A stretch of 32,916 nt of DNA, from assembly GCA_040755095.1 (NCBI GenBank), contig JBFMBH010000032.1, forward strand, positions 1-32,916. Reading direction: 5' to 3'. Under the pieces are notes generated by a model, which made no database searches, was not told where the DNA came from, and saw only the letters and a list, made by a program, of their open reading frames with translations. The position numbers were made by a program, and so were the translations under genes. Of this stretch, positions 15,577 to 32,916 are shown in pieces; within the stretch, counting starts at the first letter, position 1, and each line of letters opens with the position of its first letter. The DNA is from Thermodesulfobacteriota bacterium (GTDB lineage Bacteria > Desulfobacterota > Desulfobulbia > Desulfobulbales > JBFMBH01).

Positions 15577-15585
15577 GCCGAATCC

Positions 15586-16760: not shown

Positions 16761-18728
16761 TCACCGGGCACCGGGATCCACGAAATCATCCTTCTTCCTG
16801 TCGGCGGCTGCAGCCTGGGCGTCCCGCAGGGGCCCGGGGACAAACCCCAGCAGAAGCTGGTCCTCGGCCGCACTCAGATAGCTTGCCACGTAGGCCCGGG
16901 CAGCCTGCCGTCGCTGGTGGTAGTCGGCCGGTGCCAGTGCTTCGATATCGCGAACGATGTCAGCGAGGGAGGATGCGGAGGAAACCGTCCACTTGAAGGC
17001 GTCAAGGGCAAAAAGCGGATCATAGCTGATCACATCACCCTTGTCAAAATGAACCACCGGCCGCCCGATCATGAGGGCCTCCAGGGCGATGGTGGTACCC
17101 CAGTACAGCACAGCATCGGCACTCTCCACATCCTCTTGCACCGTGCTCCCTGATGATGCCGAGACGTTGGCCGGCAGGGGGCCGCCTTGATCCAGCATCC
17201 GGAGGATGTTGGCCAGGGGCAACACCGGATGGGCCCGCAGCTGGAACTCCAGATGGGGACAGGCTATTGCCTGCCGGAGCACATACCGCACCAGAGGCAC
17301 CACCTCCCAGACGCCCTCCAGGGCGGCCAGGATCCGAAAGCGTCCCCGGCCGGCCGCTAGCCGAGGGGAAGGCTGCATGGCAGCCAGGTACTGGTAGCGG
17401 AGCGCTCCGGCGACGGCAATACGCTCCGGGGAGACGGCGCCGTATTTGGCCAGCAGCGCCGCTGGCACCGTACCGGTGGTCATGATCCGGTCCGGCAGGG
17501 GCATGGCTGTCGCCAACTCGCGGCGGTCCTGAAACATGCCGGCCGCGGCCAGGGGGATGACCGAATGCTGATAGCCGTAGACGGGCAACCGGGGCCGGAC
17601 CTGGCGCAGCCCGGCGACGAACATCCGTTCCCAGGCGTTGCCCTCTGAGGTCATGGCGCAACCGACCAGGGCGTATGCCGCCGCCAGCCGCCTTGCCGCT
17701 GCCAGATGCAGCCAGTTGTAGAAGACGATCCGCCAACCGCCAGATGCCAGACACTCGTCCAGCAGGGAGGTGATGTCCCGGCCCTGCAAGAATACCTTCT
17801 TCCCGACCCGAAAGGGCCGGCGACAACGGCCCCACACCAGCCGGGCCAGTTCGCAGGGCAGATCGGACCAGGAGAGGGCCGCCTCCAGGGGCACCAGGCG
17901 GTGGTCGGGCAGGGTCCGCATCCGCCGGTAACAGTGCGGCCGCGCCCCCAACGTCACCGCCACGGTCAGCACCTGGGCCTGGCCGCCGAAACGGCCGGCC
18001 AGAAACGTTGCCAGCCGGCCCATGAACGGATCGCGAGGCTCCTCGCCGGGGACCAGGGAGGAGGGGTAGACAAAGCTCTTGATGAGGTAAGTGGGCCTCT
18101 CCTGGACGGCCGCCGGCATGGTTCCGTAGTACCAGCGACACTCGACCAGCCTGACCACCGAGATCGTCCAGCTGCGCAAGACCTCAAACCAGGCCCGGCA
18201 GCGACCGGACCAGCGCTGCCAACGGCCCAGCCACCAGGGGGCGGCCAGGGAGAACCCCCAGCCGCGGTTGTTAGCATCGGCAGCAACCACCCCCAGGATC
18301 GGCCACGGCGGACAGACCAGAAGAATCTGCCCGCCGTCCGCGGCTGCCGCCTCGGCGGCGTCCAGGTAATGAACCAGGGCGGTGATGAGGCCTGGCAACG
18401 GGGACAGAAACCGGTTCTTGGCCGCCAGGTCCGTGGCCCACCACTGGAGGTCGTGGCCGTTCTCCTCGGCCAGCGAGCCCACCAGATGCAGGGTTTCCCG
18501 CAGGATTTCCTCCTGACGCGCCCGGGAGGTCTGGGGTGGGGTCCAGGGTTCGATGCCCCGATCCCTGAGCCAGGCGTGCCAGGATCGGGGAGCCGCGTCG
18601 CCGAGGAGACAGCGCCACGGACTGGGCCCCGGCCGCCGCCCCTTGAGGACCTCATCGAGCCGGGACCTGGAATAGACGACGACCACCGTCGTGTCCTGCC
18701 GCGGGTATGCCGGCGCCCCGGTGCCCAC
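16761..18728 (-). CDS. Large surface-carbohydrate biosynthesis protein, putative GT-B transferase
   Basis: This 655-residue protein resembles the TIGR04326-type surface carbohydrate biosynthesis proteins known from leptospiral O-antigen loci; I give this from memory of the pattern and at moderate confidence. Visible anchors are MTSEGNAWERMF, VYGYQHSVIPLAA, DRIMTTG, AALRYQYL-like AGALRYQYLAA, LRAHPVLPL and SADAVLYWGTTIALEALMIGRPVVHF. This last sequence is like the donor-binding end of GT-B and sialyltransferase-type folds. The N-terminal half (about 1-280) is unfamiliar, with Trp-rich stretches (WWLGRWQRW, VRLVECRWYYG). Start GTG 18728 lies five bases after the methyltransferase stop with GGGAGA upstream. 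The most likely role is glycosyl transfer, perhaps of a CMP-activated ulosonic acid since the locus makes such donors. Confidence 0.65.
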   Translation of the reverse strand: MGTGAPAYPRQDTTVVVVYSRSRLDEVLKGRRPGPSPWRCLLGDAAPRSWHAWLRDRGIEPWTPPQTSRARQEEILRETLHLVGSLAEENGHDLQWWATDLAAKNRFLSPLPGLITALVHYLDAAEAAAADGGQILLVCPPWPILGVVAADANNRGWGFSLAAPWWLGRWQRWSGRCRAWFEVLRSWTISVVRLVECRWYYGTMPAAVQERPTYLIKSFVYPSSLVPGEEPRDPFMGRLATFLAGRFGGQAQVLTVAVTLGARPHCYRRMRTLPDHRLVPLEAALSWSDLPCELARLVWGRCRRPFRVGKKVFLQGRDITSLLDECLASGGWRIVFYNWLHLAAARRLAAAYALVGCAMTSEGNAWERMFVAGLRQVRPRLPVYGYQHSVIPLAAAGMFQDRRELATAMPLPDRIMTTGTVPAALLAKYGAVSPERIAVAGALRYQYLAAMQPSPRLAAGRGRFRILAALEGVWEVVPLVRYVLRQAIACPHLEFQLRAHPVLPLANILRMLDQGGPLPANVSASSGSTVQEDVESADAVLYWGTTIALEALMIGRPVVHFDKGDVISYDPLFALDAFKWTVSSASSLADIVRDIEALAPADYHQRRQAARAYVASYLSAAEDQLLLGFVPGPLRDAQAAAADRKKDDFVDPGAR

Positions 18729-18733
18729 GCCGG

Positions 18734-19483
18734 TCAGGTCTCCCGCACAAACAGACGAATCGTGTTGTTGCGGAACACCTCCCGGCGGTCGTAGTGCGGC
18801 AGGAGCACCCGCCGCTGGCCACGGAGGTTGTAGTATTTGTAGAGGATCTGCACGAATCCCTGCCGGCGGAACATCGTCTCCAGGTCCCGGGGATAGGCGG
18901 TGATACCGCCCTCGCTTTCCATGGTCAGGATGAACCCCCGGGCAACCCTGGCCATCTCCCGGAACAGGCCGTTCCACTTCGGGGCGATGTTGATCAGCAC
19001 CGAGTGGGCAAACACGAGATCGAAAGCCGCATCAGGCAGCTTCCTGATCTCGTCGTAGGCGTTGCCCACCAGGTACCTGGTCATGGCATAGGTGGCGGGA
19101 AAGTGTTCCTGCATGGCCTTTTCGGCCTCGCTGCCGATCTCGATGCCGGTGAAGGAAGAGAAGCCCTGACCGCGCAGGTAATCCAGGTTCCGACCGGCAT
19201 TGCAGCCGATCTCCAGGATGTTGGCGCCCTGGCCCAAAAACGGCAGCACGTCCGCGAACAGCAGCGGGATGGAGTCGTCGAACTGCACGAAATGGAGCGG
19301 ATTGCGGGTGGAATGCGCCGCGTGCTGGTGCCGCCACGAGTCCTCGACCCGGGCGGAACGGCTCGACAGCGGCGGATGGATGCCGTTGGTGGTGCAGAAC
19401 CGGGCGAGCCGGTAGTAGTACCACTTGAGGGAGGGCTGCCGGTCCAGGAGGTCCATCAGGGCCTGATACGATCTTCTGAGCAC
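18734..19483 (-). CDS. Class I SAM-dependent methyltransferase
   Basis: The 249-residue protein has a clear SAM-binding motif ANILEIGCNAGRNLDYL (Glu at 91) followed by FTGIEIGSEAE and FDLVFAHSVLINI, the usual motifs I, II and IV of Rossmann methyltransferases. The first about 60 residues are helical and hydrophobic-aromatic (LKWYYYRLARF) and may bind the acceptor or the membrane. The end (PHYDRREVFRNNTIRLFVRET) is like glycan or lipid methyltransferases of capsule loci. It probably methylates a sugar of the repeat unit. The start is GTG 19483, four bases after the flippase stop, with AGGTGA upstream; ATG 19456 is the alternative. It lies in the same operon as the FkbM enzyme, so two methyl groups may be added. 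Confidence 0.8.
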   Translation of the reverse strand: MLRRSYQALMDLLDRQPSLKWYYYRLARFCTTNGIHPPLSSRSARVEDSWRHQHAAHSTRNPLHFVQFDDSIPLLFADVLPFLGQGANILEIGCNAGRNLDYLRGQGFSSFTGIEIGSEAEKAMQEHFPATYAMTRYLVGNAYDEIRKLPDAAFDLVFAHSVLINIAPKWNGLFREMARVARGFILTMESEGGITAYPRDLETMFRRQGFVQILYKYYNLRGQRRVLLPHYDRREVFRNNTIRLFVRET

Positions 19484-19487
19484 GTTG

Positions 19488-20960
19488 TCACCTGTGGTGA
19501 GTGACCAGCCCGCCGACCACGCGCAGACTGTCCCTGGTCAGGATGCCGATCCTGATACCAACACAGACATAGGCGAGGACTGCCACCACCTTCATCGTCA
19601 GCAGCAGCTCGTAGGCCATGGCCATCCGCCGCAGCGCCAGCAGCAACAAGGCGCTTCCCAGGAAGACGCCGTAGATTGCCAGGACCCGGCCCCTCTGCCA
19701 GTGAATGCGGTAATGACGCTGCGAGAAACGGTAGTAAAGGGTGCCGGAAAAGAGCGATGCCAGAAGCGTCGCCCAGGCCGCGCCCTCGGCCCCCCATTTC
19801 AGGACCAGAGGAACGGTGACCAGCGCATTGACGGCGACGCTGCAGACGCCGAGCACCGACATGAGCAGCATCTTCTTGGCGTAGAGCAGCTGCGGGTGCA
19901 TGTTGAAGAACAACAGCCCGTAATACATGGACAAAATGGTGACGATGTCTGCGGCGCCGTGGTACGAGGCCGGCGTCAGGACCGCAATCGCCTCCTGGGC
20001 GAAGAGCGCCACCGGCAGGGCGATGGCGACGGAGGCGTAGGCGAAGGGCGTCAGATAGGCGCCGACCGCCTGGCCCCCTTCGTCGCCCAGCTCGAACATC
20101 CGCCGGAACACCTGGGGTTGGCAGACGTTGTAGAGAGCGGTCATGAAGGTGAAGACCACCAGTGCCACCCGCTGGCCGATGCTGTACACGCCGGCGCCGC
20201 CCAGGGAGGCCAGCATGCCCACTAGGTACTTGTCCAGCTGGCTGCCGGCCACGCCCAAGAGCACCTTCGGCAGCATGGGGGTGCCGAGCCGCACGGACTC
20301 GAGCAGCATGGCCCGGTTCAGGCGGACAGGCTGATGCCGGAAGAAGTCGACGCTCAGCCACAGGAAGACCAGAGAACCCGCAAACAGCTGCCCCCAGACC
20401 AGGCCGACCACCCCCACCCTGGCTACCACCACTAGGTAATAGGCCGCGCCCAGGTTGAGCACGCTGCCTGCCACGGTGCAGAGGGCGAACCGGATGGCCA
20501 TTTCGGAGTTGCGGAGGAAGGCCAGGTAGTACCAGCTGATCCCGGATGCGAACTGACCGCAGACGGTCCAGAACAGGAAATCGCCGTGCCCGGGGGCGCC
20601 GATGATCAACCTTGCCAGCCCATCCCGAGCCACGAAGGTCACCAGCGCCCAGACCACGAAGTTGGCAATCACCAGTCCCAGGGTACTGCTCAGGAGTTGC
20701 AGGCTTTCCGCTTCGCTGCCGCGGTACTGGAAAAAATTCCGGTTGTAGACAGCGTTCATACCGAAGTTCGCCATGCCGCTGGCCAGCATGGCGTAGATGG
20801 TCGCCAGCGCCAGCACGCCGTAGTCCTCGCTGGACAGGATCCGGGTGAACACCGGCATGGTGAGAAATGGCAGCAGACTGTTCACCAGCACCGGCATGAG
20901 ATAGATGATGCCGTTTCTGACCTGGTCCCTCCGGAAGGAAGCCGTCGCGGGTTCAGGCAT
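19488..20960 (-). CDS. Wzx-type oligosaccharide flippase (MOP/PST superfamily)
   Basis: The 490-residue protein has about 12 to 14 hydrophobic segments through its length. Its N-terminus reads RNGIIYLMPVLVNSLLPFL and PVFTRILSSEDYGVLALA, the standard beginning of Wzx proteins (a TRxLxxxDYG pattern). LDKYLVGML and GVYSIGQRVA in the middle also fit. It should move the undecaprenyl-diphosphate-linked oligosaccharide from the inner to the outer face of the cytoplasmic membrane. ATG 20960 (ATGCCTGA) overlaps the stop of the upstream 701-residue gene by eight bases; GTG 20966 would add two residues. A Wzy polymerase is not seen in the window, so either polymerisation is encoded elsewhere or a single unit is exported. 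Confidence 0.9.
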   Translation of the reverse strand: MPEPATASFRRDQVRNGIIYLMPVLVNSLLPFLTMPVFTRILSSEDYGVLALATIYAMLASGMANFGMNAVYNRNFFQYRGSEAESLQLLSSTLGLVIANFVVWALVTFVARDGLARLIIGAPGHGDFLFWTVCGQFASGISWYYLAFLRNSEMAIRFALCTVAGSVLNLGAAYYLVVVARVGVVGLVWGQLFAGSLVFLWLSVDFFRHQPVRLNRAMLLESVRLGTPMLPKVLLGVAGSQLDKYLVGMLASLGGAGVYSIGQRVALVVFTFMTALYNVCQPQVFRRMFELGDEGGQAVGAYLTPFAYASVAIALPVALFAQEAIAVLTPASYHGAADIVTILSMYYGLLFFNMHPQLLYAKKMLLMSVLGVCSVAVNALVTVPLVLKWGAEGAAWATLLASLFSGTLYYRFSQRHYRIHWQRGRVLAIYGVFLGSALLLLALRRMAMAYELLLTMKVVAVLAYVCVGIRIGILTRDSLRVVGGLVTHHR

Positions 20961-23058
20961 GGTCACGCCGGTCCTGGTCCTGCCACACGTGTTCCTGTCC
21001 CCAGACGGTTGCGAACCGCTGCGCCGCCGTGGCTAGGGCCGTCTGCTGCGTCGCCCCGTCTCGCAGCGCCTCGTGGGTCCAGCGGATGAAGGAGCCGAGC
21101 CGACCAGCGGCGTTGCCATCCCGGAAAGGGTCGATGTCGTCCAGGCCCGGGGTCCAGTCACCGAAGCCGGGGCAGCGGTCGGGATCGGCACAGTAAGCCT
21201 CGAAGGCGCTGCGGAAGGCGGGCCACTCCCGAAATACCACACGCCCTCGCCCCCAGGCGTAAAAGGGGTGATCCAGGGTGGCTGTGGCGTCGATGAGCGC
21301 GGTGGGGATACCGGCGAGGGCGGCCTCCAGGGCGGCGGTGCCGCCGTTGAGCAGCCCCACCACCGCGTCGGCCATGAGGGCGGCCTCGGTGGGATAGATG
21401 TTGCCGACCAGGGTGTCGCTGGTGAGAAACACGGCCCGGCCGGTATCCCGGGCCCTCTCCAGCAGGTCCCCCAAGGAGGCGAGGCGCTGGAACAGGTCGG
21501 TGGATTTCTTGGGTTTGAAGACCACACCAAGCGTCGGCTCGTCCAGGAGCCATTCCAGCAGAAACCGGTAATCGGCCGCGGCCACAGCATGGGACGACCT
21601 GATGTACCAGCGGTCCACCGAGTTTTCGTCCAGAAAGCAGAGGATGTGTCTGGCCCCTTGCGCCTCCAGGCCCCGCCGGACGGCCTCGATGCGGGGGTTC
21701 GCCTCCACCAGCCGCCGGACGCCGCCATGGACGAAGCCCATGTTGACCAACCAGTCGTTCGCACCCCGCAGCCGCTGGCGCTGTTCCCGAAAACGGGAGG
21801 AGAACACGAACTGCACGTTTTCACCGGCCACCAGGGCCGTGCTGGGCGCGACGATGTTGGACAGGGAATACTGGTACGAGATGGTGGCTCCTCCCAGGTG
21901 GTCCAGGGCCAACACCTGGCCCACGGCGGCCACATTGTCCGGCGTGACGTTGACCGCCACCCGGTTGCCCTGGAAAAAATCGAGCCAGTAGCTGTACTCA
22001 AAGGCCAGGGAGGCCGCCTCGAACAGGAGATAGGCCGGCACCCTGGATCCAGGCCCCAGGGAGGCGACCGCTGCCCACAGCACCGCCAGCAGCTCGCGAC
22101 CCAAGACGACCAGCATGGCCGGCCGGGGTCGCCAGTCAACCACATCCGGACCGCGGCCGACGATACGCAGCCCCCCGCTGTGGAACGCCGTCCGCACTTC
22201 CGGCGACAAAGGGGCTTCCGAGGTGTAGCCATAGACAAGGAGGTAGCCGGCCCCGACATCCGCCTCGGCCGCCCAGAAGAGCCCGGAGCGGTCCTCGGGC
22301 CGCAGGCTCAACGTGCGGTGGTAGTTGTGCACAGCCACCGTCGGGACGGCCGTGGGCGCTGGTAACTGCGCCAATCCGTCGGGGCATTCTCTTCCCTTCC
22401 GCGCGCCGCATCCCCAGCCGGCCACCACCCGGGTCAAGAACCGGGGCAGCGATGCCAGGCCCCTGCGGAGGGTCGGAACGGCCCGATCGAAGACGCGACC
22501 GGCCCGGTCCGGGTCCCAGTTGGGGCCGTAGCCCTGTAAACGGATGTTTCTGGCCGCCGCATAGCGTTGCAAGGCCAGGAACCAGCAGCTCCGCCGTACC
22601 AGGAGGAGGGCGTCGGCCCGACGGACGTCGTCTTCCCGGCCAAGCAGCCATTCGACTAAGCCAAGCCGCAAGAACTCCCGGGTCAGCCATTGCTCGGCCA
22701 GACGCTCGAAGTAGAGGACCAGTTTCTCGTGTTGCCAGCGCCGCGCCAGGGTGGCGAGAAAGGGGCTCCTTTCCAGGAGGTCACGCCTGAGCTGCCGGCA
22801 ATGCCGCCGTGCCTCCTCCTGCAGACTCACGTAGACGCAGCATCCGTCCTGGTCCACCACCTGGCCGATGTGGCTGGTCACGAGTCGCTCCTGCGCCCTG
22901 AGCAGACCAAGAGCGCGGACGGTGGCCAGAAAGACACCGGCGCTCCGCTCCGGCTCCTCAAAACGGACAATGGCCGCTGCCGAGCGGCCGTGCCACAAAA
23001 CCGGCACCAGGGACCACAGACAGAGCCGGTCGACGAAAAGCATCCTGGGCGGGGACAT
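20953..23058 (-). CDS. Uncharacterised 701-residue surface-polysaccharide protein (GT-B-like C-terminus)
   Basis: I do not recognise a named family. The first 250 residues are Arg- and Leu-rich with several Trp and Tyr (LRLGLVEWLLGRED, GYGPNWDPDR). Residues around 340-460 include FEYSYWLDFFQGNRVAVNVTP, LGGATISYQYSLSN and ENVQFVFSSRFRE. The last 200 residues contain HILCFLDENSVDRWY, LGVVFKPKKST and MADAVVGLLNGGTAALEAALAGIPTALID, where the final stretch is the Gly/Ala-rich donor-binding end of GT-B enzymes. A surface-glycan transferase similar in kind to the neighbour at 16761-18728 is therefore plausible. The start ATG 23058 has a weak ribosome-binding site; ATG 23043 is an alternative. It lies between the ACP and the flippase genes. 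Confidence 0.6.
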   Translation of the reverse strand: MSPPRMLFVDRLCLWSLVPVLWHGRSAAAIVRFEEPERSAGVFLATVRALGLLRAQERLVTSHIGQVVDQDGCCVYVSLQEEARRHCRQLRRDLLERSPFLATLARRWQHEKLVLYFERLAEQWLTREFLRLGLVEWLLGREDDVRRADALLLVRRSCWFLALQRYAAARNIRLQGYGPNWDPDRAGRVFDRAVPTLRRGLASLPRFLTRVVAGWGCGARKGRECPDGLAQLPAPTAVPTVAVHNYHRTLSLRPEDRSGLFWAAEADVGAGYLLVYGYTSEAPLSPEVRTAFHSGGLRIVGRGPDVVDWRPRPAMLVVLGRELLAVLWAAVASLGPGSRVPAYLLFEAASLAFEYSYWLDFFQGNRVAVNVTPDNVAAVGQVLALDHLGGATISYQYSLSNIVAPSTALVAGENVQFVFSSRFREQRQRLRGANDWLVNMGFVHGGVRRLVEANPRIEAVRRGLEAQGARHILCFLDENSVDRWYIRSSHAVAAADYRFLLEWLLDEPTLGVVFKPKKSTDLFQRLASLGDLLERARDTGRAVFLTSDTLVGNIYPTEAALMADAVVGLLNGGTAALEAALAGIPTALIDATATLDHPFYAWGRGRVVFREWPAFRSAFEAYCADPDRCPGFGDWTPGLDDIDPFRDGNAAGRLGSFIRWTHEALRDGATQQTALATAAQRFATVWGQEHVWQDQDRRDHA

Positions 23059-23084: not shown

Positions 23085-23327
23085 TCAGCGCTGGGCCCTG
23101 GAGGCAACATAGTTGACGACGTTGGTCATGATGGTGAGCTGGTACTGGCCGATATCCTCTTCCTTGACGGGGATGGAAAAGGCCTTTTCCAGGTCGAAGA
23201 AGAAGGTGATCATATCCAGGGAATCCATGCCCAGGTCGTTCTGCAGCCTTTCACCCTTGTCGAAGTCAACCCTGCCTTTGATGCCGGTGATGATCTCCTC
23301 GATCTTGGTCCTGATCTCCTCAGACAT
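23085..23327 (-). CDS. Acyl carrier protein
   Basis: The 80-residue protein is a normal-size ACP with the phosphopantetheine attachment site GMDSLDM. Ser36 is in the same position as in E. coli AcpP, and acidic residues dominate. The ATG at 23327 has GGAGG eight bases upstream, so the 17 extra upstream codons in the open frame are rejected. Its ATG overlaps the 3' end of the KAS III gene (stop at 23320), implying coupled translation. It differs from a housekeeping AcpP in having TFFFDLEKAFSIPVKEEDI. I infer that it carries the acyl group made by the KAS III enzyme for transfer to a sugar, as reported for ACP/FabH pairs in flagellar or O-antigen glycosylation loci. Confidence 0.9.
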   Translation of the reverse strand: MSEEIRTKIEEIITGIKGRVDFDKGERLQNDLGMDSLDMITFFFDLEKAFSIPVKEEDIGQYQLTIMTNVVNYVASRAQR

Positions 23328-24294
23328 GCCATCCTCCGCCGCAATTTTCAAGAACTGTGCTGGCCCATGACAGGCCAACTCCGAATCCAGATATCAGAAT
23401 ATGGCAAATATCTTCGCCGCCAGTCTGCACGAGCAAAGTATGCAGCGCGATGGGCACCGATGACGACACAGTATTGCCGAAGCGTTCCACGCAGCTGAAC
23501 ACCTTGTGCCCCTCGACGTCCAGGCGCTTCGCGATGGCCTGCAGCATGAAGAGGCTGGCCTGGTGGAAGACGAAGCGGTCCATCCCGGCCAGGGTCATGC
23601 CGTTGACCGCCGCGCAACGCCGGATGTCCTCGGGGACCACCGCTGCCACCAGTTCGAACACCCGCCGGCCGTCCATGTGGAGATGCTGCCGCGGTCCGAG
23701 GTACTGGTCGGTTCGCCTGACGATCAGGCTGTCAGCGCCGGCACCGCTGGTTCCGAACGTGAACCGGCCGACGGTCAACCGCGGCGCGTGGCCCAACAGG
23801 GTGGCAGCAGCGGCATCACTGAACAGCGGTTTCGTGTTCCGGTCGTCGTCGGCGATGATCTTCGAATAGGTCTCGGCGGTGACCAACAGGCCGGCCTCGA
23901 TGCCGTTGCTTTCCATGAAGGCCTTGACCACGGACAGCCCGTAGACATAGCCGGAACAACCCAGGCCGAGATCGAAGCAGGCAACCTTCGCCGGCAGGCC
24001 CAGCTTGACCTGCACCAGCGCCGCGGTATGCGGAAGCTGGTAATCGGGGGTCTGGGTACAGACCACCAGCACCCCTAACCGATCCAGCACCTCGGGCCGG
24101 CGCTGCAGGATCGACCGCACCGCCATGACAGCCAAGTCAGAGGAGTACTCGCCAGGAGCGGCCACGAAAATGGAACGTACCCCCAGCTTCTCCTCCAGAA
24201 AGGGAAGCGAGAAGCCGAACCGTGCCGCCAGCTCCCGGGAGGAGATGGACTGCTCCGGCAGATGGTAGGCGATGTCCTCGATGCCGATGGTCAC
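23320..24294 (-). CDS. Ketoacyl-ACP synthase III (FabH-like)
   Basis: The 324-residue thiolase-fold enzyme has a complete catalytic triad at the same positions as E. coli FabH: Cys113 in LGLGCSGYVYGL (112 in E. coli), His244 in FVFHQASLF and Asn274 in ERFGNTVSSSVP. Family members condense acetyl-CoA or another acyl-CoA with malonyl-ACP. The neighbouring dedicated ACP and GNAT suggest it makes a short beta-ketoacyl-ACP for an amino-sugar acyl group and not for membrane lipids. The start is GTG 24294 with AGGAGAGG nine bases upstream. An otherwise empty 105-bp gap separates it from the preceding gene. The end overlaps the ACP start. Confidence 0.9.
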   Translation of the reverse strand: MTIGIEDIAYHLPEQSISSRELAARFGFSLPFLEEKLGVRSIFVAAPGEYSSDLAVMAVRSILQRRPEVLDRLGVLVVCTQTPDYQLPHTAALVQVKLGLPAKVACFDLGLGCSGYVYGLSVVKAFMESNGIEAGLLVTAETYSKIIADDDRNTKPLFSDAAAATLLGHAPRLTVGRFTFGTSGAGADSLIVRRTDQYLGPRQHLHMDGRRVFELVAAVVPEDIRRCAAVNGMTLAGMDRFVFHQASLFMLQAIAKRLDVEGHKVFSCVERFGNTVSSSVPIALHTLLVQTGGEDICHILISGFGVGLSWASTVLENCGGGWHV

Positions 24295-24399
24295 TGGTCA
24301 TCCTCTCCTGGGACGCTGGCGTGGGGCGACGCCGTGGGTTCGCAGGCCACCTGCGCCCGGGTCATCCGGCCCCAGTCAGCAACGCGGCCCCTGGGCTGA

Positions 24400-25080
24400 T
24401 CACGGCTGTTCAAACAGGGCGAAGGCCACTTCGAAGGGTTTCACGAAGGTGTCTGGCAACGACACGGCGCTGAGGGTGGCGATGGAATCATCCCGGCGGC
24501 GAACCCCGATGTTCCTGATCACAAGGGGCAACCAGCATGACCCCTCCTGGTTGGAGACCGGAGGCTGCAGGGGCACCCGCCGCATGAAGAGATTCACCAC
24601 CCGGAACGGCCCGGGCTTGGCCGACACCGTCAGCAGATGGATCTGCTTGTTGGCCTCGATGGCATTGGCAAAGAGATCGTCGGCGGTGCCAACATCGATC
24701 AAGCAGCGGCCGCTGTAGTCCCCGGCCAGCTGCAAGTCCCCCACCCCACGTCGTCTCTCCAGCCGCCGTTCCACCGGCCGCCCGGTGTCTTCCAGGAAGA
24801 CCGCGGTGTAGGCCCAATTCCGATCCTGGAAGCGCATCACCGTCTTGGCGCCGGCCGTCGCCTCGGCGGTGGGCGCCTGGGTACCGGCAAAGAAACGGAA
24901 GACACCATTGGACAACACCTCGCCGTGGAATTGGGCATCGACCACGGGGTGGTGCCATCGGGCCTCCGGCACCAGATGACGAGCCAGGGCTTTGCGGGCC
25001 TCCGACAGCAGGGTCGACGAGTTCACATACGACCGGGCGCCGATGAGAACAAAATCCGTCACGACATCCATGGGCTTCAT
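24400..25080 (-). CDS. Unrecognised 226-residue cassette protein
   Basis: No family is recognised. The product is soluble-looking with mixed alpha/beta character. Features that stand out are DFVLIGARSYVNSSTLL near the N-terminus, HHPVVDAQFHGEV, SNGVFRFFAG, RCLIDVGTADDLF (about 145) and HLLTVSAKPGPFRVVNLFMRR. There are no transmembrane segments and no metal-binding Cys clusters. It lies between the GNAT gene, whose stop is three bases upstream, and the KAS III/ACP pair. The tight spacing suggests a shared task, for example processing, reduction or transfer of the ACP-bound acyl group, but no reductase or dehydratase motif can be seen. ATG 25080 has GAGGGGCGA upstream; ATG 25071 is a possible later start. 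Confidence 0.6.
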   Translation of the reverse strand: MKPMDVVTDFVLIGARSYVNSSTLLSEARKALARHLVPEARWHHPVVDAQFHGEVLSNGVFRFFAGTQAPTAEATAGAKTVMRFQDRNWAYTAVFLEDTGRPVERRLERRRGVGDLQLAGDYSGRCLIDVGTADDLFANAIEANKQIHLLTVSAKPGPFRVVNLFMRRVPLQPPVSNQEGSCWLPLVIRNIGVRRRDDSIATLSAVSLPDTFVKPFEVAFALFEQP

Positions 25081-25083
25081 CCG

Positions 25084-25818
25084 TCATTCGCCCCTCTTCA
25101 GCATGCCCCACAGATTCTCCGCCTGCTCAGCAGCCAGCCAGGCCCGAAGCCGATCCACTGTGGATTCGGCAGGCAGATTCTTCAGCATCTCGAACAGGGC
25201 GCTCTTCCCTGGCCAAAGGGAGCCGCTCCGGGCCTCCTTGAGGCGCAGGTAATCCTCCAGCAGGCACGACGCCATCATCGTGTCCCATACCCGATGTCCC
25301 TTCCGGAAGTTGTTACGAAGAATGCCCTCGATCTGGTAGCCGAACAGCACCTGCCAGCGCTGCCATTTGATGAGTTCCACGACCTGTTCGGACTGCACAC
25401 GCTCCACGCCAACCTGTTCAAAGGCATGTTCGGTCATCCGGCACTTGGTTTCCATGGCGTAGTAGATCGAGTCGGGAGCGTCGTCCTTCTTGCCGATGAC
25501 CATGGCAAAATGACAACGCCTTTGCACGTGATCGATGAAGGACAGTGACGCTACGCCCACGAAATAATTTGCACTCTTGGGCTTGATGAGCAGGACGATT
25601 CGGTTGTCGCTGTTCGTCACCGTGTCGTAGAACCGTTCCTGCCTCTCTCTGGTATTGGGAAACACCCCCTGGTAGAGGTAGGGGGTCACGTCCGGGTCGT
25701 TGAACCAGCGGTACCATTGCTGGAGGACCCGCTCCTCCCTGGAGGGGGCGCACAGATCCACCACCTCGCCTCGGATAAAGACATCGTCCGCCGGACCTTC
25801 CTGCCCTCTGCCCGCCAT
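25084..25818 (-). CDS. GNAT-family N-acyltransferase
   Basis: The 244-residue protein has a GNAT-like core: QQWYRWFNDPDVTPYLYQG, a segment beginning VGVASLSFIDHVQRRCHFAMVIGK, and LFGYQIEGILRNNFRKGHRVWDTMMAS at the end of the core. This is the pattern of N-acyltransferases that work on nucleotide-linked amino sugars. About 45 further residues (PGKSALFEMLKNLPAEST...) form an unfamiliar tail. ATG 25818 is chosen because GGGGGAG lies at the correct distance before it; longer starts overlap the synthase gene. It is followed after three bases by the unrecognised gene and then KAS III/ACP, so it may take acyl-ACP or acetyl-CoA. The product is presumably an N-acylated deoxy sugar on the way to the nonulosonic acid. 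Confidence 0.75.
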   Translation of the reverse strand: MAGRGQEGPADDVFIRGEVVDLCAPSREERVLQQWYRWFNDPDVTPYLYQGVFPNTRERQERFYDTVTNSDNRIVLLIKPKSANYFVGVASLSFIDHVQRRCHFAMVIGKKDDAPDSIYYAMETKCRMTEHAFEQVGVERVQSEQVVELIKWQRWQVLFGYQIEGILRNNFRKGHRVWDTMMASCLLEDYLRLKEARSGSLWPGKSALFEMLKNLPAESTVDRLRAWLAAEQAENLWGMLKRGE

Positions 25819-25861: not shown

Positions 25862-26932
25862 TCAGCCATCCAATACTGCCGCCCAATCCAGTGGCGTTCC
25901 CTTACGGATGTCCCGGCTTGCCCGGCGGCCCAGGATGAGCCCATAGTACTTGGGGGCCAGTCCGTCCCCCGGCCGTATGATCCTCAGGTTGTGCTCGTTC
26001 AGCTCTTCCCCCCGGCGCACGTCCTCGACCACGTAGATGGAGCGGCGGAAGCGCAAGGAGGGTGCCTCGGCGGTGGTCACCCCGTAGGCCACCCGACCCA
26101 GCGCCTGCCATGCTTGCAGGGATTCCGCCACCAGTTGCCGCATCTCGTGCGGCTCCATGGAAAAGGCGGCATCGACACCCCCGGCGGCCCGGGAGAGCGT
26201 GAAATGCTTCTCGATTACGGTGGCGCCCATGGCCACCGCGGCCACGGCAACACCGATGCCCCGGGTATGGTCGGACAGCCCCACCTCGGCTGTGAACAGC
26301 TGCCGCAGATGGGGCAAGGTGGCCAGGTTGATGGTGTCGGCTGCCGCCGGGTAGGTGCTGGTGCACTTCAGGAGCACCAGCCGGTCGCAGCCGGCCCCTC
26401 TGGCCGTCGCCACGGCCTCGTCCAGCTCGGCGACCGTCGCCATGCCGGTGGACAGGAAGAGGGGCTTACCGGTGGCCGCCACCTTGCGGATGAGGGGCAG
26501 ATGGTTGTTCTCGAAGGAGGCAATCTTGTAGGCTGGTACCCCCATGGACTCCAACCGATCCACTGCCGCCTCGTCGAACGGGGTGCTGAAGACGGTCAGC
26601 CCCAGGTCCCGACAACGCCGAAATATGGCTTCATGCCACTCCCAGGGGGTATGAGCCTGCTCGTAAAGTTGATAGAGGGAACGATCGTGCCACAGGCTCT
26701 TCGGATCATCAATGAGGAAGCTTTCGGACCGGGCATCGATGGTCAGGGAGTCGGGGGTGTAGGTCTGTAGTTTCAGGGCGTGAGCCCCGGTGGCGGCGAC
26801 GGCATCGACGATGGCCAGGGCCGTGTCCAGGGACTGGTTGTGGTTGCCCGACATCTCGGCGATAACAAAAGGCGGCTCTTCCACGCCGATCAGCCGGCCG
26901 TTCACCACCAGTTCCCCAGCCCCCTTTCCCAT
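25862..26932 (-). CDS. pseI: PseI-like pseudaminic acid synthase (NeuB family)
   Basis: The 356-residue protein condenses phosphoenolpyruvate with a six-carbon amino sugar to a nonulosonic acid. Evidence for the PseI branch: PFVIAEMSGNHNQSLDTALAI at 21-41, ALKLQTYTPDSLT, LYQLYEQAHTPWEWH, FSTPFDEAAVDRLES, YKIASFENNHLPLIRK, LLKCTSTYPA, GLSDHTRGIG and EKHFTLSRAAGGVDAAFSM. A C-terminal SAF (antifreeze-like) domain (RRSIYVVEDVRRGEEL ... LILGRRASRDIRKGTPL) completes the usual layout, at a normal length. I therefore favour pseudaminate over sialate or legionaminate synthesis. ATG 26932 has GGGAGG upstream at good distance; the open frame starts at GTG 26956. A TIM/GNAT fusion precedes it and a GNAT follows it in the operon. 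Confidence 0.85.
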   Translation of the reverse strand: MGKGAGELVVNGRLIGVEEPPFVIAEMSGNHNQSLDTALAIVDAVAATGAHALKLQTYTPDSLTIDARSESFLIDDPKSLWHDRSLYQLYEQAHTPWEWHEAIFRRCRDLGLTVFSTPFDEAAVDRLESMGVPAYKIASFENNHLPLIRKVAATGKPLFLSTGMATVAELDEAVATARGAGCDRLVLLKCTSTYPAAADTINLATLPHLRQLFTAEVGLSDHTRGIGVAVAAVAMGATVIEKHFTLSRAAGGVDAAFSMEPHEMRQLVAESLQAWQALGRVAYGVTTAEAPSLRFRRSIYVVEDVRRGEELNEHNLRIIRPGDGLAPKYYGLILGRRASRDIRKGTPLDWAAVLDG

Positions 26933-26971
26933 GATCGTGTCATCCTCCCTGCGCACAGCCCCTGACCGCTG

Positions 26972-28192
26972 TCAACCTGCCAACCTCTGAAGCTGCCCGG
27001 CTGGTCGGACATAGAGCAACAGATCGCCCTCGCGACCGGTGCAGCTCATGCCGATGGCCTCGGCCATGCGGATCGAGGCCTGATTGCCGGGTTTGATAAC
27101 TGCCCTCAGGACCCCGGGCATGGTCGCGGCCAGCTGGGCCAGCATTCGCTTGCCAATGCCGCGGCCCGTCGCCCGGGGTGCCACGATCCAGGACAGCTCC
27201 CAGCCGTGGTCAACGGCATCGGCACGCACCATGCCCACCGGCAGACCGTTCTCCTCCGCCACCGAGATCCTTCGGGCCGGATCGGCCAGGACAGCGCCCA
27301 GCCACCGTTCGTGCTCCTGCCTGTCCAGCAGCCGGGAATGGCGGCTGGCCTGCCTGGCTTCATCCGTGTTGCGCCAGGCAAGGAGCAGATGCCGATCGGC
27401 CCAGGTGGCAGGGCGCAGGCCGATGGCGCTCACCGCGGGCCTGAGACGGCTCCGCAGCCAGTGCACATCCCGAACGAAGTCGTCGAGGCCAGAGTCCGGC
27501 CGTCGGGGAGTCTCAAGGCTCAACCAGCAGCTCCGCGGCAGAAAAGCGACCAGCTCGCCCACAGGCAGGTCACCCTGCCCCAGATTGAGGTGCACGTCGA
27601 TCTCCGAGGCCTGCCATCCGTCCGCCAGGTGGAAGTGCCGGGGTGACAACCCCGCCAGATCCCCCACCACCTGCAAGGGGTCCTGTCCCAGGGAGCGGGC
27701 GGCGCAGACGGCATGACCAAAATCGAGCACCAGTCCGGCTGCTACGCCGGCGGCCAGAATCTGACCGATTTCCCCAGCGCTGTAGCCCCGGCAGCTCTGC
27801 CCTCCCAGCCCCAGCCGGGGCTTGTTTTCCACCTGGATGCGGCTGTCGTCCAGCAGCCGCAGCTGGCGGATGGTCTCGGCCAACGTGCCGTCGCAGCCGG
27901 GATGGACGATGATGGTGTCTGCGGCGAGAAGATCGGCCAGCCGCTGCACCTCCGCCATGGCGGCCCGGTTGGTGGCCTCCAGCTGCCGCTCCGCCAGGTT
28001 GACACCGTGGCCGGCATGGGGGGCGTGGAGGAGAAACGGCAGGCCGGACCGGCTCCAGAGGTCGGCTGTGGCCTCTACGCTGCCGGGCACCACATAAAGC
28101 TCGATATAGTCAAACAGGCCGTCGGCATGCCGCTCCTGCGCCTGCCGGCTCAGCCCTGTATCCGTTGACCAGAGCTTGAGACCAAGCCGCAT
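26972..28192 (-). CDS. Fusion of a TIM-barrel sugar isomerase-like domain and a PseH-like GNAT
   Basis: The 406-residue protein has two domains. Residues 1 to about 255 form a xylose-isomerase-like TIM barrel: LHAPHAGHGVNLAE, DTIIVHPGCDGTLAET, IQVENKPRLG, GLVLDFGHAVCA and HFHLADG, with His, Asp and Glu in the places where AP-endonuclease-2-type isomerases or epimerases bind metal. Residues from about 258 to 395 are a GNAT: GLRPATWADRHLLLAWRNTD, SWIVAPRATGRGIGKRMLAQL (acetyl-CoA pyrophosphate loop) and NQASIRMAEAIGMS. The GNAT is written like PseH, or the acetyltransferase half of PseG/PseH fusions, which acetylates an amino group of a UDP-sugar. Joining it to a TIM barrel in place of the UDP-sugar hydrolase PseG is unusual. 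The start is GTG or ATG at 28192; it is followed by pseI. Confidence 0.8.
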   Translation of the reverse strand: MRLGLKLWSTDTGLSRQAQERHADGLFDYIELYVVPGSVEATADLWSRSGLPFLLHAPHAGHGVNLAERQLEATNRAAMAEVQRLADLLAADTIIVHPGCDGTLAETIRQLRLLDDSRIQVENKPRLGLGGQSCRGYSAGEIGQILAAGVAAGLVLDFGHAVCAARSLGQDPLQVVGDLAGLSPRHFHLADGWQASEIDVHLNLGQGDLPVGELVAFLPRSCWLSLETPRRPDSGLDDFVRDVHWLRSRLRPAVSAIGLRPATWADRHLLLAWRNTDEARQASRHSRLLDRQEHERWLGAVLADPARRISVAEENGLPVGMVRADAVDHGWELSWIVAPRATGRGIGKRMLAQLAATMPGVLRAVIKPGNQASIRMAEAIGMSCTGREGDLLLYVRPAGQLQRLAG

Positions 28193-28237: not shown

Positions 28238-29521
28238 CTACAATATGACGTATTCACTCTGCTGATTGAGGCTCTCCCCCTCCTCGATGTGCTCGTCTCG
28301 ACAGGAGCCCTTGCGCGGGGTGCGGATGAAGCCCTTGCAGTCCGGTTGCAGCGGCAGCCGTGCTGCCTCCACCCCCGGATCCTGGAGGTGGTTGCCGATG
28401 TGATCCTTGACCTGCCATCGCCCATCCTGGCCCTTTTCCCAGATGCTCGGATCCCGCATCGGTTCCACCAGGGCCTCGAATTCCTCCTCGGTCATGCCGA
28501 TAAAGCGTAAGTACAGATCCAGGTCTGCCGGCCGCACCGGATCGTACTGCATGACCATGGCAATCCCTTCCTCCCGGGTCATGCGGCGGTGACGGATCTC
28601 GGTGCTGGCGTCATCCGTGGCCCGGCCGTAGCCGAACTTCAGATACTTGAGATAGTCGTGGACGCCGTTGGCGTGGATGTCCTCGAGCTTGTCGTAGAGG
28701 TTGAAAGTCCGGTCCCGTCGCTGGGCCGTTTCAAAGCCGTACTTCTCGATCATCAGCTCGGTCTGTTTCCGGGCATTCCAACTGATGAAGTTGCTGAGAT
28801 AGATCCCGCGCAGCCCCACCTCTTCGATCTCTTCATCCGAAGGATAGAAAAAGGCGGCCAGATCCCGGGGGGTAAAAGGCGAGTCCCGGCGGTTGAGCAG
28901 GTCCTCGGGCTCGAAGCCGCGCATGTCGTGCTCCTGACGCTTCTTCTTGGTAAACTCCACCATGTCGTCCTGGTTGAACATGCCGGTAAGCTCAGTGAAG
29001 CCCTCTTCCCCCCAGATCATGAGGGGAATCTTGTAACGGACCGCGATCTGGATCGGGAAGGTCATGATGCCGGCATGATAATGCCAGGTGATGTCACCAA
29101 CGTGCTCCAGCATGTAGCGGCTGATCTTGCGCACGGAATCCGGATTGATCGTGAAGCGTAACAGATCGCAGCTGAACTGCTTCACGAGATTGGCGAGATT
29201 GCGCATACCAAGCTTGGTGTTGAACAGGTGATTGTACGTGACGAGCAGCGGATTCATGCCGTAGACCTCCTTCATCAGGTAGGTCTGGTAATGGCTGTCC
29301 TTGCCGCCGCTGACCGGGATGATGCAATCGTAAACCTGGTTCTGCTCCCGGGCCCGTGCCTTGTACTCCGCCAGCAGGTCCCGCAACCACCGTTCCCGCT
29401 CGGTCCAGTCGATCCGCCGCCTGGATTCGATCACACGGCAGCCGCTGCATACGCCGCTGCCATCGAAGATGATGTCGGGCTTGGCATTGGCCGGATAGCA
29501 ACAACGCTGACAATACTCCAC
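28238..29521 (-). CDS. N-acetyl sugar amidotransferase (PseA/WbpG family)
   Basis: The 427-residue enzyme has the PP-loop ATP motif PVSGGKDSHYQTYL (SGGKDS at 71-76) and a zinc pair C4-x2-C7 with C25-x2-C28, the hallmark of N-acetyl sugar amidotransferases. ATP activates the acetamido carbonyl, ammonia attacks it and an acetamidino group results, as with PseA in Campylobacter and WbpG in Pseudomonas. The following neighbours upstream, HisF-like and HisH-like proteins, would supply that ammonia from glutamine, so the three form a functional set. A tail after residue 390 is rich in charge and less conserved. ATG 29521 lies 12 bases after the HisF-like stop, with GGGAGGACAGCC upstream. A pseudaminic acid with an acetamidino group is the likely product. 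Confidence 0.9.
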   Translation of the reverse strand: MEYCQRCCYPANAKPDIIFDGSGVCSGCRVIESRRRIDWTERERWLRDLLAEYKARAREQNQVYDCIIPVSGGKDSHYQTYLMKEVYGMNPLLVTYNHLFNTKLGMRNLANLVKQFSCDLLRFTINPDSVRKISRYMLEHVGDITWHYHAGIMTFPIQIAVRYKIPLMIWGEEGFTELTGMFNQDDMVEFTKKKRQEHDMRGFEPEDLLNRRDSPFTPRDLAAFFYPSDEEIEEVGLRGIYLSNFISWNARKQTELMIEKYGFETAQRRDRTFNLYDKLEDIHANGVHDYLKYLKFGYGRATDDASTEIRHRRMTREEGIAMVMQYDPVRPADLDLYLRFIGMTEEEFEALVEPMRDPSIWEKGQDGRWQVKDHIGNHLQDPGVEAARLPLQPDCKGFIRTPRKGSCRDEHIEEGESLNQQSEYVIL

Positions 29522-29533
29522 GGCTGTCCTCCC

Positions 29534-30352
29534 TCAAACACGATATTGCACTTCGTACTTCGGCTTTCTTTGCGTCAGATTCTTGAAGAAGACGGTCTCC
29601 CGCATCTCCACCTGCTGCTGCACCATGTACTCCTTGGCTTTCTTGGTGCTGTGTTCGGTGAAATGGAAGATGTTGGCCGCCGATACTGCTGCCGCTCCCC
29701 CCCGGGTGATGCCGTCCACCAGATGCTGCCAGTTGCCCACCCCTCCCGAGGCGATGACCGGGACACCCACGCCTTCCGCCACCCGCCGGGTCAGTTCCAG
29801 ATCGAACCCTTGCCGGGATCCGTCCTGGTCGATGGAGGTGAGGTAGATCTCGCCTGCCCCCCGTTCCTCAACGATCCGGGCCCAGGACAACGGGTCAAGC
29901 CCGGTGGGCTGCCGGCCCCGGTCAACTATCACCTCGTACCGCCCCTCCTGGTCACGCCGCACATCCATGGAAACGACGATGCACTGGCTGCCGAAGGTGC
30001 GGGCGCAGGTCGCCACCAGCTCCTCCTGCCGATAAGCCTCGGTGTTGATCACCACCTTGTCGGCTCCCAGCTGGAGAAAGGTGCGTACGTGCTCCGGCCG
30101 GGAGATCCAACCGCCCACGGTCAGCGGCACGAAACAGCGCTCCGACAGGTCGCGCACGATCTGCCCGAAGGGCTCCCGGAACTCCTGATCCCGGCTGACG
30201 TCCAGAAGCACGATTTCGTCCACCGCCCAGGTATTGAAGAAATCGACGGCGGTGATGGCATTGCCGATGACGTTGGTGTGCGCAAAGCGGATGCTCTGGA
30301 CGATGCGGCCGTGACGGGCCAACAGGGTGGCGATGAGTCTCTTCTTAAGCAT
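29534..30352 (-). CDS. HisF-like ammonia-using partner subunit
   Basis: The 272-residue beta/alpha barrel resembles HisF, the cyclase subunit of imidazole glycerol phosphate synthase: TVGGWISRPEHVRTFLQLGADKVVIN, SASGGVGNWQH-like VIASGGVGNWQHL and GGAAAVSAANIFHF are clear. The normal N-terminus IACLDVKDGRVVKG reads IATLLARHGRIVQS here, so the first catalytic Asp (Asp11 in Thermotoga HisF) is replaced by Leu. That argues against histidine biosynthesis and for an ammonia channel serving the next gene, an N-acetyl sugar amidotransferase. It overlaps the HisH-like gene by eight bases. Pseudomonas and Campylobacter glycan loci carry similar HisH/HisF paralogues beside an amidotransferase. Confidence 0.88.
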   Translation of the reverse strand: MLKKRLIATLLARHGRIVQSIRFAHTNVIGNAITAVDFFNTWAVDEIVLLDVSRDQEFREPFGQIVRDLSERCFVPLTVGGWISRPEHVRTFLQLGADKVVINTEAYRQEELVATCARTFGSQCIVVSMDVRRDQEGRYEVIVDRGRQPTGLDPLSWARIVEERGAGEIYLTSIDQDGSRQGFDLELTRRVAEGVGVPVIASGGVGNWQHLVDGITRGGAAAVSAANIFHFTEHSTKKAKEYMVQQQVEMRETVFFKNLTQRKPKYEVQYRV

Positions 30353-30986: not shown

Positions 30987-31029
30987 GACCACCGTCCGCT
31001 GCCCGCCGGAGCGCCTGCTCCGGCGGGGT

Positions 31030-32361
31030 TCAGATCAGCCGGGCGAAACCGGCGCTGGCCGGCTGGCCACGGAGGGCCGCCAGCAGCACCCCCTCGTCCC
31101 CCAGGGTCGCCAGCTCCCCGAAACACTCGTCCACCAGGCGCAGATACGAGGTTACGTGTTCTTCCTGGTGGGCGTACATGGCGTAGAAGAGCGTCGAGGC
31201 CAGGCAGCCCCGGTCCAGCATCATTTGCACGAACAAGGCCTTGCGTTGCTGGGGCAGCGAGTCCTGGAAGGCGAAGTGACTTAACGGCGGGATGCCGCCG
31301 ACCGAGATCCGCAGGCCATGCCGGGCCGCTGCCTTACGCCAGCCCTCCTGTACCAGGCCACCGACCCGCACCAGATGGTCCGCCGCCTGACAGGCCCGGT
31401 GCTTGCGAACGGTGGCCAGGGCTGCTGCCGGCCCCAGCCGCTCGGTCCAGCACGTGCTACTGATGAAGCTCTCCTGGGCTGCGGCCATCACCTCGGCGCG
31501 ACCGATGACGGCGCCGATGGCGTAGCCGTTGCCCAAGGCCTTGGAAAAGACCGCCAGGTCCGGGGCGACGCCCAGGATCAGATGGGCACCGCCTGAGCAT
31601 AGCCGGAATCCCGCCGAGATCTCATCGAAGATGAAGACGGCACCGTTCTTGGCGGCCAGATCTCTGACCCCAGCCAAGAAGCCGGGAGCAGGGGTATCGT
31701 TGCGGATGGGCTCCATGACGACTGCGGCCAGGCTAGCGCCGTGGCGGGCGCAGATCGCTTCCAGTTCCGGCAGCTGGTTGTACCGAAACGGCAAGGCGGT
31801 GCCGGCCAGGCCAGCAGGCACGCCGCGGGGGCTCAGGCCCGGCATGAGATGGCCTTCCAGAGCCGTGCCACTGGCCAGGTTGGCGGCCAGGTACCAGTCG
31901 TGCCAGCCATGGTAGCCACAGAAGGCGACCAGGTCCCGACCGGTGTGGGCCCTGGCGATGCGAACAGCTACGGCCATGGCCTCGCCGCCGGCCCGGGTAA
32001 AGCGCACCATCTGGGCCCAGGGGTGGATCTCGCACAGGAGTTCCGCCAGCTCCACCTCCTCCGGACAGTTGAGGGACGAGCTGACGCCGTCGGCGATGGC
32101 GCGGCGCACCGCCTCGTCCACCTCCGGATCCCCGTAGCCCAGGATGTTGGCGCCAATGCCGGCGATGCTCATGTCCAGGTATCGGTTGCCGTCCAGATCC
32201 CAGACCTCCACCCCCTGGGCGCGGCTGAAATAGCCTGGCCAAACCCCCAGGGAGAAGCGGTCCGGCCGCTTGGACAGAAGCTGGGTCATGCCCGGTATGC
32301 AAACTCGCGCCCGGGCCTGCATGGCCAGGCTCAGCGAAAGATCCCGTGGTCGGTTTTCCAT
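31030..32361 (-). CDS. Class III PLP aminotransferase (glutamate-1-semialdehyde aminomutase-like)
   Basis: The 443-residue protein has the class III aminotransferase signature: VWDLDGNRYLDM, RFTRAGGEAMAVAVRIARAHTGR, CGYHGWHDWY, AAVVMEPIRND, FIFDEISAGFR and FSKALGNGYAIGAVIG, with the PLP-binding Lys at residue 274. The sequence most resembles glutamate-1-semialdehyde aminomutase, but the location in a nonulosonic-acid locus suggests transamination of a sugar or sugar-derived aldehyde or ketone. PseC, the usual enzyme for the pseudaminate pathway, is from another aminotransferase class and is not visible here. ATG 32361 has GTGGAGTTG upstream; 48 more upstream codons in frame lie in the oxidoreductase region and are rejected. 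It follows the partial oxidoreductase by 38 bases. Confidence 0.85.
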   Translation of the reverse strand: MENRPRDLSLSLAMQARARVCIPGMTQLLSKRPDRFSLGVWPGYFSRAQGVEVWDLDGNRYLDMSIAGIGANILGYGDPEVDEAVRRAIADGVSSSLNCPEEVELAELLCEIHPWAQMVRFTRAGGEAMAVAVRIARAHTGRDLVAFCGYHGWHDWYLAANLASGTALEGHLMPGLSPRGVPAGLAGTALPFRYNQLPELEAICARHGASLAAVVMEPIRNDTPAPGFLAGVRDLAAKNGAVFIFDEISAGFRLCSGGAHLILGVAPDLAVFSKALGNGYAIGAVIGRAEVMAAAQESFISSTCWTERLGPAAALATVRKHRACQAADHLVRVGGLVQEGWRKAAARHGLRISVGGIPPLSHFAFQDSLPQQRKALFVQMMLDRGCLASTLFYAMYAHQEEHVTSYLRLVDECFGELATLGDEGVLLAALRGQPASAGFARLI

Positions 32362-32399
32362 GCCCAACTCCACCCCTGAGTCGACCTGCCCCGGCGCTC

Positions 32400-32916
32400 T
32401 CAGGACGTGGCGCAGCACATGGCGCCGGCCCCTGCCCTTGCCCGGGCCTCCAGGGCGACCTCCAGCTCCCGAAGTGCCTGCCTGCCGTCGAGGAGCAAAG
32501 ACCATTCCTGCTCACCGCCAGCGATGAAGCGCCCCAGCATCAGCCGGTAAGGCTCGTTGCCGTCCAGGCTGTCGGAGGCGTGGAGGGTCTCCCACTGGTC
32601 GCGATCCCGCCGGAACAGACGGACGCTGCAGATCTCCGGGTTCTTGCCTTCGCTCTGCCACAGGAGCATGCCGTCCTCTCCAACCAGCTCACAGCCCCGG
32701 CGCTTATAGGGGCGCAGATAGTCGAGATGGATCTCCGACACCGTCCCTGACGCGTGCCGCAAGGCCAGGCAGGCATAGTCTTCGACGTCGATATCGAGGT
32801 CGCTCAGCCGGGCGGCCACCGCGGCGTTCACGGTGGCAACCGGTCCCAGAATCCACCCAAGGTAGTCCAGTTCGTGGATCGCGTCCAGAATCACCCCGCC
32901 CCCCGCCTCCCGCCGG
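32400..32916 (-). CDS. Gfo/Idh/MocA-family oxidoreductase, C-terminal part
   Basis: The coding region enters from beyond the right edge; the frame is open up to the last bases (REAGGGVILDAIHELDYLGW). Only about 170 C-terminal residues are visible and the NAD(P)-binding Rossmann half is outside the window. GGGVILDAIHELDY is the strand and helix with the conserved His of Gfo/Idh/MocA dehydrogenases, and EDYACLALRHASGTVSEIHLDYL plus YRLMLGRFIAGGEQ are family-typical. Such enzymes oxidise or reduce nucleotide sugars or their derivatives. As the first visible gene of the operon it probably acts early in making the unusual sugar. The remaining upstream genes, which may include pseB, pseC, pseG and pseF counterparts, cannot be seen. 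Confidence 0.8.
   Translation of the reverse strand, partial: RREAGGGVILDAIHELDYLGWILGPVATVNAAVAARLSDLDIDVEDYACLALRHASGTVSEIHLDYLRPYKRRGCELVGEDGMLLWQSEGKNPEICSVRLFRRDRDQWETLHASDSLDGNEPYRLMLGRFIAGGEQEWSLLLDGRQALRELEVALEARARAGAGAMCCATS

Follow-up and report, generated by a model that had tools for sequence, protein, structure and literature searches.

A ketosynthase, acyl carrier protein, predicted hotdog-fold protein and N-acyltransferase cassette downstream of pseI in a Thermodesulfobacteriota surface-glycan cluster

The cassette downstream of pseI

We analysed a stretch of 32,916 nt (the window) that makes up an entire contig, C32, of the 4.52-Mb, 255-contig genome assembly of a Thermodesulfobacteriota bacterium, a member of the same phylum as Desulfarculus. 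A surface-glycan cluster runs along its minus strand, and in it a cassette of four genes lies directly downstream of pseI, the gene for pseudaminic acid (Pse) synthase (25862..26956). Listed from pseI onward, and all on the same strand, these encode a weakly PseH-like N-acyltransferase of the GCN5-related (GNAT) type (25084..25818; 244 aa, counted from an ATG preceded by a well-placed GGGGGAG), a 226-aa protein of an undescribed family with a predicted hotdog fold (24400..25080), a ketosynthase resembling 3-ketoacyl-ACP synthase III (KAS III; 23320..24294; 324 aa, GTG start), and what appears to be a dedicated acyl carrier protein (ACP; 23085..23327; 80 aa, with Ser36 as the phosphopantetheine site). 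The GNAT gene follows pseI after 43 bp and precedes the gene for the 226-aa protein by 3 bp, a gap of 105 bp separates the latter from the KAS III gene, and the KAS III and ACP genes overlap by 8 bp; the original prediction, made by reading the DNA without database searches, had placed the four genes here, spaced by a few bases or overlapping except for one 105-bp gap, and this is confirmed. The genome holds only two KAS III genes of the PF08545 family, and that one of them, at a distance of four genes from pseI, should overlap a gene for an ACP argues that the cassette is not a chance assembly.

Both domains of a KAS III enzyme are present in the ketosynthase (ACP_syn_III, 64.7 bits against a cut-off of 24; ACP_syn_III_C, 78.6 against 26.6), while it falls short of the two NCBIfam FabH cut-offs (222 against 249 bits and 200 against 292) and is only 26% identical to Escherichia coli FabH and 30% to the FabH of its own genome (BLASTP). 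Aligned with E. coli FabH, the catalytic residues Cys113, His244 and Asn274 are kept in 13 of 13 KAS III sequences, and Ser36 of the ACP sits inside an LGMDSLD motif, so that these residues are indeed intact, as had been claimed. The ACP scores 23 bits with the PP-binding model (cut-off 20.8), shares about 30% identity with E. coli AcpP across 44 residues, and can be classed as a type II ACP. In a tree of the same 13 KAS III sequences the three FabH representatives form a separate clade with support 1.0, and the window enzyme lies outside it; scores and tree together place it in the KAS III superfamily and not with housekeeping FabH. The original prediction would have been refuted had the cassette ACP proved to be the sole AcpP of the genome; a second AcpP is encoded on contig C12, together with FabH and FabF, and this separate set rules out the cassette as the housekeeping fatty-acid genes.

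Relatives of the ketosynthase and of the 226-aa protein

The window KAS III clusters, with support 0.999, with enzymes from a Desulfarculus metagenome-assembled genome (MAG), from a further genome (G544), from the alphaproteobacterium Pontibrevibacter and from Pseudomonas veronii, its closest single neighbour among them being poorly supported (0.40); the Desulfarculus enzyme is about 50% identical to it (52%). Related KAS III genes come mostly from other amino-sugar clusters: that of Azospirillum stands in a block pseI-ACP-ligase-SDR (short-chain dehydrogenase/reductase)-KAS III-flagellin, that of Burkholderia glumae in a block vioA-KAS III-ACP adjoining flagellin, and that of Pontibrevibacter in a cluster with FdtA and an aminotransferase. 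The neighbours of the P. veronii gene are annotated as phb genes, so the clade is not linked to glycans throughout. The locus of a Capnocytophaga KAS III (L026) and a MAG labelled Klebsiella pneumoniae were rejected as relatives of the cassette, neither having such a gene set; by eye the genes of the latter contig (L027) are un-Klebsiella-like, and the record is possibly mislabelled.

For the 226-aa protein no sequence match was obtained in Pfam, NCBIfam or PDB, and single-sequence searches of related genomes, the other contigs of its own genome, plasmids, PDB and phages returned only the protein itself. Three relatives were recognized. The first is in the Desulfarculus MAG (L025:7281-7973; pairwise E = 1e-12) and the second in another Desulfarculus-type bacterium, G371 (L033:8045-8773; E = 7e-9, and 3e-12 by profile search). 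The third, from Pontibrevibacter (L053:5381-5992), is weaker, its kinship being marginal on sequence alone (BLASTP E = 8e-4 in a set of 13 sequences; hhalign E = 0.001 at a probability of only 21%), and it was the position of its gene directly upstream of KAS III that raised our confidence in a probable relationship.

A search for the gene block, proposed along with the original prediction, showed that its core recurs in further bacteria, next to genes for nonulosonates and other amino sugars. The three relatives of the 226-aa protein are all encoded within amino-sugar clusters; every one has an ACP and an N-acyltransferase gene close by, and two abut a KAS III gene. The order in the Desulfarculus MAG is AAC(3)-type acyltransferase, 226-aa homologue, KAS III, ACP, on a contig that also encodes a NeuC-type epimerase, a WbuX homologue, a formyltransferase and, by eye, HisF- and HisH-like proteins. 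In G371 the AAC(3)-type gene is divergent beside the homologue, and a methyltransferase, an ACP and LuxE follow, then a gene that by eye is LuxC-like; the contig also encodes NeuB, NeuC, PseG and two WbuX homologues. The Pontibrevibacter order is ACP-hexapeptide transferase-hotdog-KAS III-FdtA-aminotransferase. The fold of the N-acyltransferase thus differs from locus to locus: GNAT in the window, AAC(3)-type or hexapeptide elsewhere.

The family is rare. A four-row profile found the window alone among 258 genomes of its class, and in two samples of the phylum that overlap one another, each of about 395 genomes, only the window and G371 were accepted; a three-row profile had no match among viral contigs. 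Single-sequence matches within the class (E of 0.003 to 0.09) were judged unconvincing, the four-row profile retaining only the window, and marginal profile matches in two genomes of the phylum samples (G375 and G400) were rejected, being located in chemoreceptor-like or other unrelated frames. At the G544 locus a 199-aa protein without a Pfam match (L041:1886-2485) has a methyltransferase-like gene on one side and KAS III-ACP-AAC(3) on the other; it holds the position of the 226-aa protein and is unrelated to it.

The fold was assigned through the Desulfarculus relative, whose AlphaFold model from three sequences reached a pLDDT of 60.9 and a pTM of 0.58, and was best in the C-terminal half. 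All of the best 50 PDB matches listed by Foldseek for this model are hotdog folds (best E = 1.5e-4), mostly thioesterases of the PaaI/4HBT type along with malonyl-ACP decarboxylase MadB (1T82), and with double-hotdog enzymes lower in the list. By way of this relative, the 226-aa protein likely has a hotdog fold as well; a pair of helices, with strands after each of them, is suggestive of a double hotdog. The earlier proposal that this protein may be a processing enzyme gains support from the modelled likeness. Residues found to be invariant in the family are the Gly, Arg and Tyr of a G-x-R-x-Y loop, along with one Asn from the second half of the protein.

Pseudaminic acid genes and a candidate acyl-supply route

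Genes for Pse synthesis are present in the genome. In the window, PseI passes the equivalog model TIGR03586 (475 bits, cut-off 340), and a WbuX-type N-acetyl-sugar amidotransferase, an enzyme of acetamidino formation, likewise exceeds its cut-off (28238..29521, minus strand; TIGR03573, 361 against 203 bits). Contig C103 encodes PseB above its cut-off and a PseF-like protein just below (196 against 206); between PseB and an additional NeuB-type synthase, itself under both the PseI and the NeuB cut-offs, lies an RmlD-like reductase fused to PseC (L051:2063-4207; 487 bits against 423.5). No PseG was seen on C103. This contig breaks off in the N-terminal part of a Gfo/Idh oxidoreductase gene that runs past its end, and the window in the C-terminal part of such a gene, which makes it probable that the contigs are adjacent; a sequence overlap between them was looked for and not found.

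The cassette GNAT scores 34.3 bits with Acetyltransf_3 (cut-off 25.4) and 32 with the PseH model TIGR03585 (cut-off 93.1), and its closest solved sequence is spermidine N1-acetyltransferase (3tth, E = 2.8e-4). By score it is not a PseH equivalog; it may nevertheless act in a PseH-like manner.

We consider it reasonably likely that the cassette as a whole is an ACP-dependent acyl-supply branch of the Pse surface-glycan cluster. KAS III would prime a short chain on the cassette ACP, in the simplest case joining acetyl-CoA and malonyl-ACP to give acetoacetyl-ACP; the predicted hotdog-fold protein would act on the ACP-bound chain or control its release, as an enzyme of dehydratase, thioesterase or decarboxylase type; and the GNAT would pass the acyl group on to an amine of a sugar, for which the likeliest candidate is the 4-amino group of the UDP-altrosamine intermediate. 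That group becomes N7 of Pse. The parts of this reading differ in strength. Most secure is a dedicated, ACP-linked supply of acyl groups to a sugar amine of the window glycan, which we think probable; the odds that Pse itself is the acceptor seem to us about even, and a four-carbon acyl group, acetoacetyl or 3-hydroxybutyryl, is a tentative choice that could well be wrong. The original prediction of a dedicated route to an unusual N-acyl group thus stands in part: separation from housekeeping FabH and AcpP, recurrence of the core by amino-sugar genes and published precedents all speak for it, while the identity of the acyl group and Pse as its acceptor stay proposals.

Several observations count against this reading. 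AlphaFold gave the window protein itself, from three sequences, a pLDDT of 36, and that model was left out of the fold search; the hotdog assignment leans on a relative that shares only about 30% identity with it and was modelled from three sequences; moreover, the invariant G-x-R-x-Y and Asn residues match no catalytic set that we identified. No 3-oxoacyl-ACP reductase equivalent to VioR is found among the scanned genes of the 33-kb window, nor on C103 by inspection, whereas the viosamine, Flavobacterium and Azospirillum cassettes each carry a reductase; 3-hydroxybutyryl would therefore need the housekeeping FabG. In G371 the hotdog gene lies near ACP and LuxE without KAS III, and so the hotdog protein need not serve a KAS III product. 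Finally, the window encodes a second PseH-like GNAT, fused to a xylose-isomerase-like TIM barrel (26972..28192, minus strand; AP_endonuc_2, 46 bits; Acetyltransf_3, 47.9; PseH, 30 against 93), and this protein might be the GNAT that acts on Pse, in which case the cassette acyl would be destined for another sugar.

The same machinery might instead serve another acceptor, the fusion protein being the true PseH and the cassette acyl ending up on a different amino sugar, or on a hydroxyl group, within the same glycan. Besides the two PseH-like GNATs, the additional NeuB-type synthase and a class III (glutamate-1-semialdehyde-type) aminotransferase (31030..32505, minus strand; Aminotran_3, 135 bits) suggest further unusual sugars, and in Pontibrevibacter the hotdog/KAS III/ACP set adjoins FdtA and an aminotransferase rather than Pse genes. 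Set against these are the mere 43 bp between pseI and the GNAT gene, and the nonulosonate clusters that house two of the three relatives of the 226-aa protein; we regard this alternative as unlikely, though the most serious of those considered.

Less probable still is that the hotdog protein makes acetyl- or propionyl-ACP, like MadB or the double-hotdog LnmK, and that the GNAT then adds an ordinary acetyl or propionyl group. MadB is among the top structural matches of the modelled Desulfarculus relative, its counterpart MadA fuses a GNAT to the same hotdog, and acetyl-ACP feeds sugar N-acetylation by GlmU (PMC8666670). MadB acts on an ACP-bound acyl group, as proposed for the 226-aa protein, but is a single hotdog domain with an essential Asn45, and no sequence similarity to it was detected in the 226-aa family; assignment of the 226-aa protein to MadB (PF09500) was rejected, there being no Pfam (or NCBIfam) match and Asn45 not being conserved. 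In an alignment by eye, for which the MadB loop was read off 1T82 as printed, the position of Asn45 is taken by the invariant Tyr of the G-x-R-x-Y loop. A MadB-type reaction is therefore not supported, and a condensing KAS III would be superfluous in such a scheme.

Some FabH-like acyltransferases, such as CerJ, transfer acyl groups without condensing them. That the cassette KAS III does likewise, passing an acyl group directly from ACP to a sugar oxygen or nitrogen, would accord with its place outside the FabH clade and under the FabH cut-offs, but is very improbable given its intact Cys-His-Asn triad of decarboxylating condensation and an adjacent GNAT that could do the transfer.

Precedents and other genes of the window

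Kits of KAS III, ACP and N-acyltransferase are already known. In the viosamine island of Pseudomonas syringae, vioS (KAS III), vioR (reductase), acp and vioB (N-acyltransferase) yield N-(3-hydroxy-1-oxobutyl) viosamine (PMC3927599), and as in the window, genes for KAS III and ACP stand beside one for an N-acyltransferase among the amino-sugar genes of a surface glycan. The sugar there is dTDP-viosamine, a reductase is present and a hotdog protein is not, in contrast to the Pse context, the GNAT and hotdog genes and the unseen reductase of the window. The O-antigen R-group genes (wfp) of Flavobacterium psychrophilum likewise, as far as the consulted part of that paper describes them, include a glycan-specific ACP, ketoacyl synthase, reductase and acyltransferase for a proposed sugar N-acylation, with 3,5-dihydroxyhexanoyl as the candidate acyl on a diamino sugar (PMC6519341); they differ in having two ketoacyl synthases, the reductase and a PglD-type transferase, and that part mentions no hotdog protein.

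Other systems join acyl-modifying genes to Pse synthesis. The consulted part of a survey of Aeromonas flagellar glycosylation islands describes group II islands with Pse genes, ACP, reductase, AMP-dependent synthetase, LuxE and LuxC, and, in group III, one strain (group IIIC) with Pse genes, a GNAT and an 'acyl dehydratase'; no KAS III is named there, and its authors put forward a putative liposugar component (PMC7874193). In Acinetobacter baumannii, psaABCGHF makes Pse5Ac7R, for which (R)-3-hydroxybutanoyl on N7 of Pse is established; this locus uses alternative psaG and psaH, and no dedicated KAS III or ACP is listed for it (PMC9676051).

New in this cassette are the hotdog-like family and the way in which transferase folds are swapped around it. 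More speculatively, and with less assurance than we attach to the four-carbon acyl group, the 226-aa protein may typify an undescribed double-hotdog family for ACP-bound short acyl groups in glycan N-acylation, active by way of the G-x-R-x-Y loop and combined interchangeably with three unrelated transferase folds, GNAT, AAC(3)-type and hexapeptide, which would widen the range of acyl groups on pseudaminic, legionaminic and related sugars. Antigenicity is shaped by the N-acyl groups that nonulosonic acids and other amino sugars of bacteria carry, and the origin of those other than acetyl is rarely known; the cassette, with its ketosynthase, ACP, hotdog-like partner and swapped transferase, offers a gene signature for unusual acyl sugars, and gives a testable biochemical context to a protein family that neither Pfam nor NCBIfam contains.

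Further minus-strand genes of the cluster include a pair for HisF-like and HisH-like proteins of ammonia supply (29534-30352 and 30345-30992; His_biosynth, 183 bits; GATase, 77 bits). The TIM-barrel part of the GNAT fusion at 26972-28192 has no obvious role in Pse synthesis. Two large proteins without a Pfam match over cut-off, of 701 and 738 aa, are encoded at 20953-23058, directly downstream of the ACP gene, and at 16761-18977; they are possibly glycosyltransferase-like. Within the same run of genes on one strand, positions 14719-16718 encode a KdsA-like synthase, a KdsB-like cytidylyltransferase and a CBS-domain protein, so that 3-deoxy-D-manno-oct-2-ulosonic acid (Kdo) may also have a part in the glycan or in its carrier. 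An Rfam search of the window gave zero matches, and scans of it for promoters and terminators gave signals at chance level only. Elsewhere in the window (3004-6261), a single frame of 1085 aa seems, by eye, to join a PHP-type N-terminus to a UvrD-like helicase.

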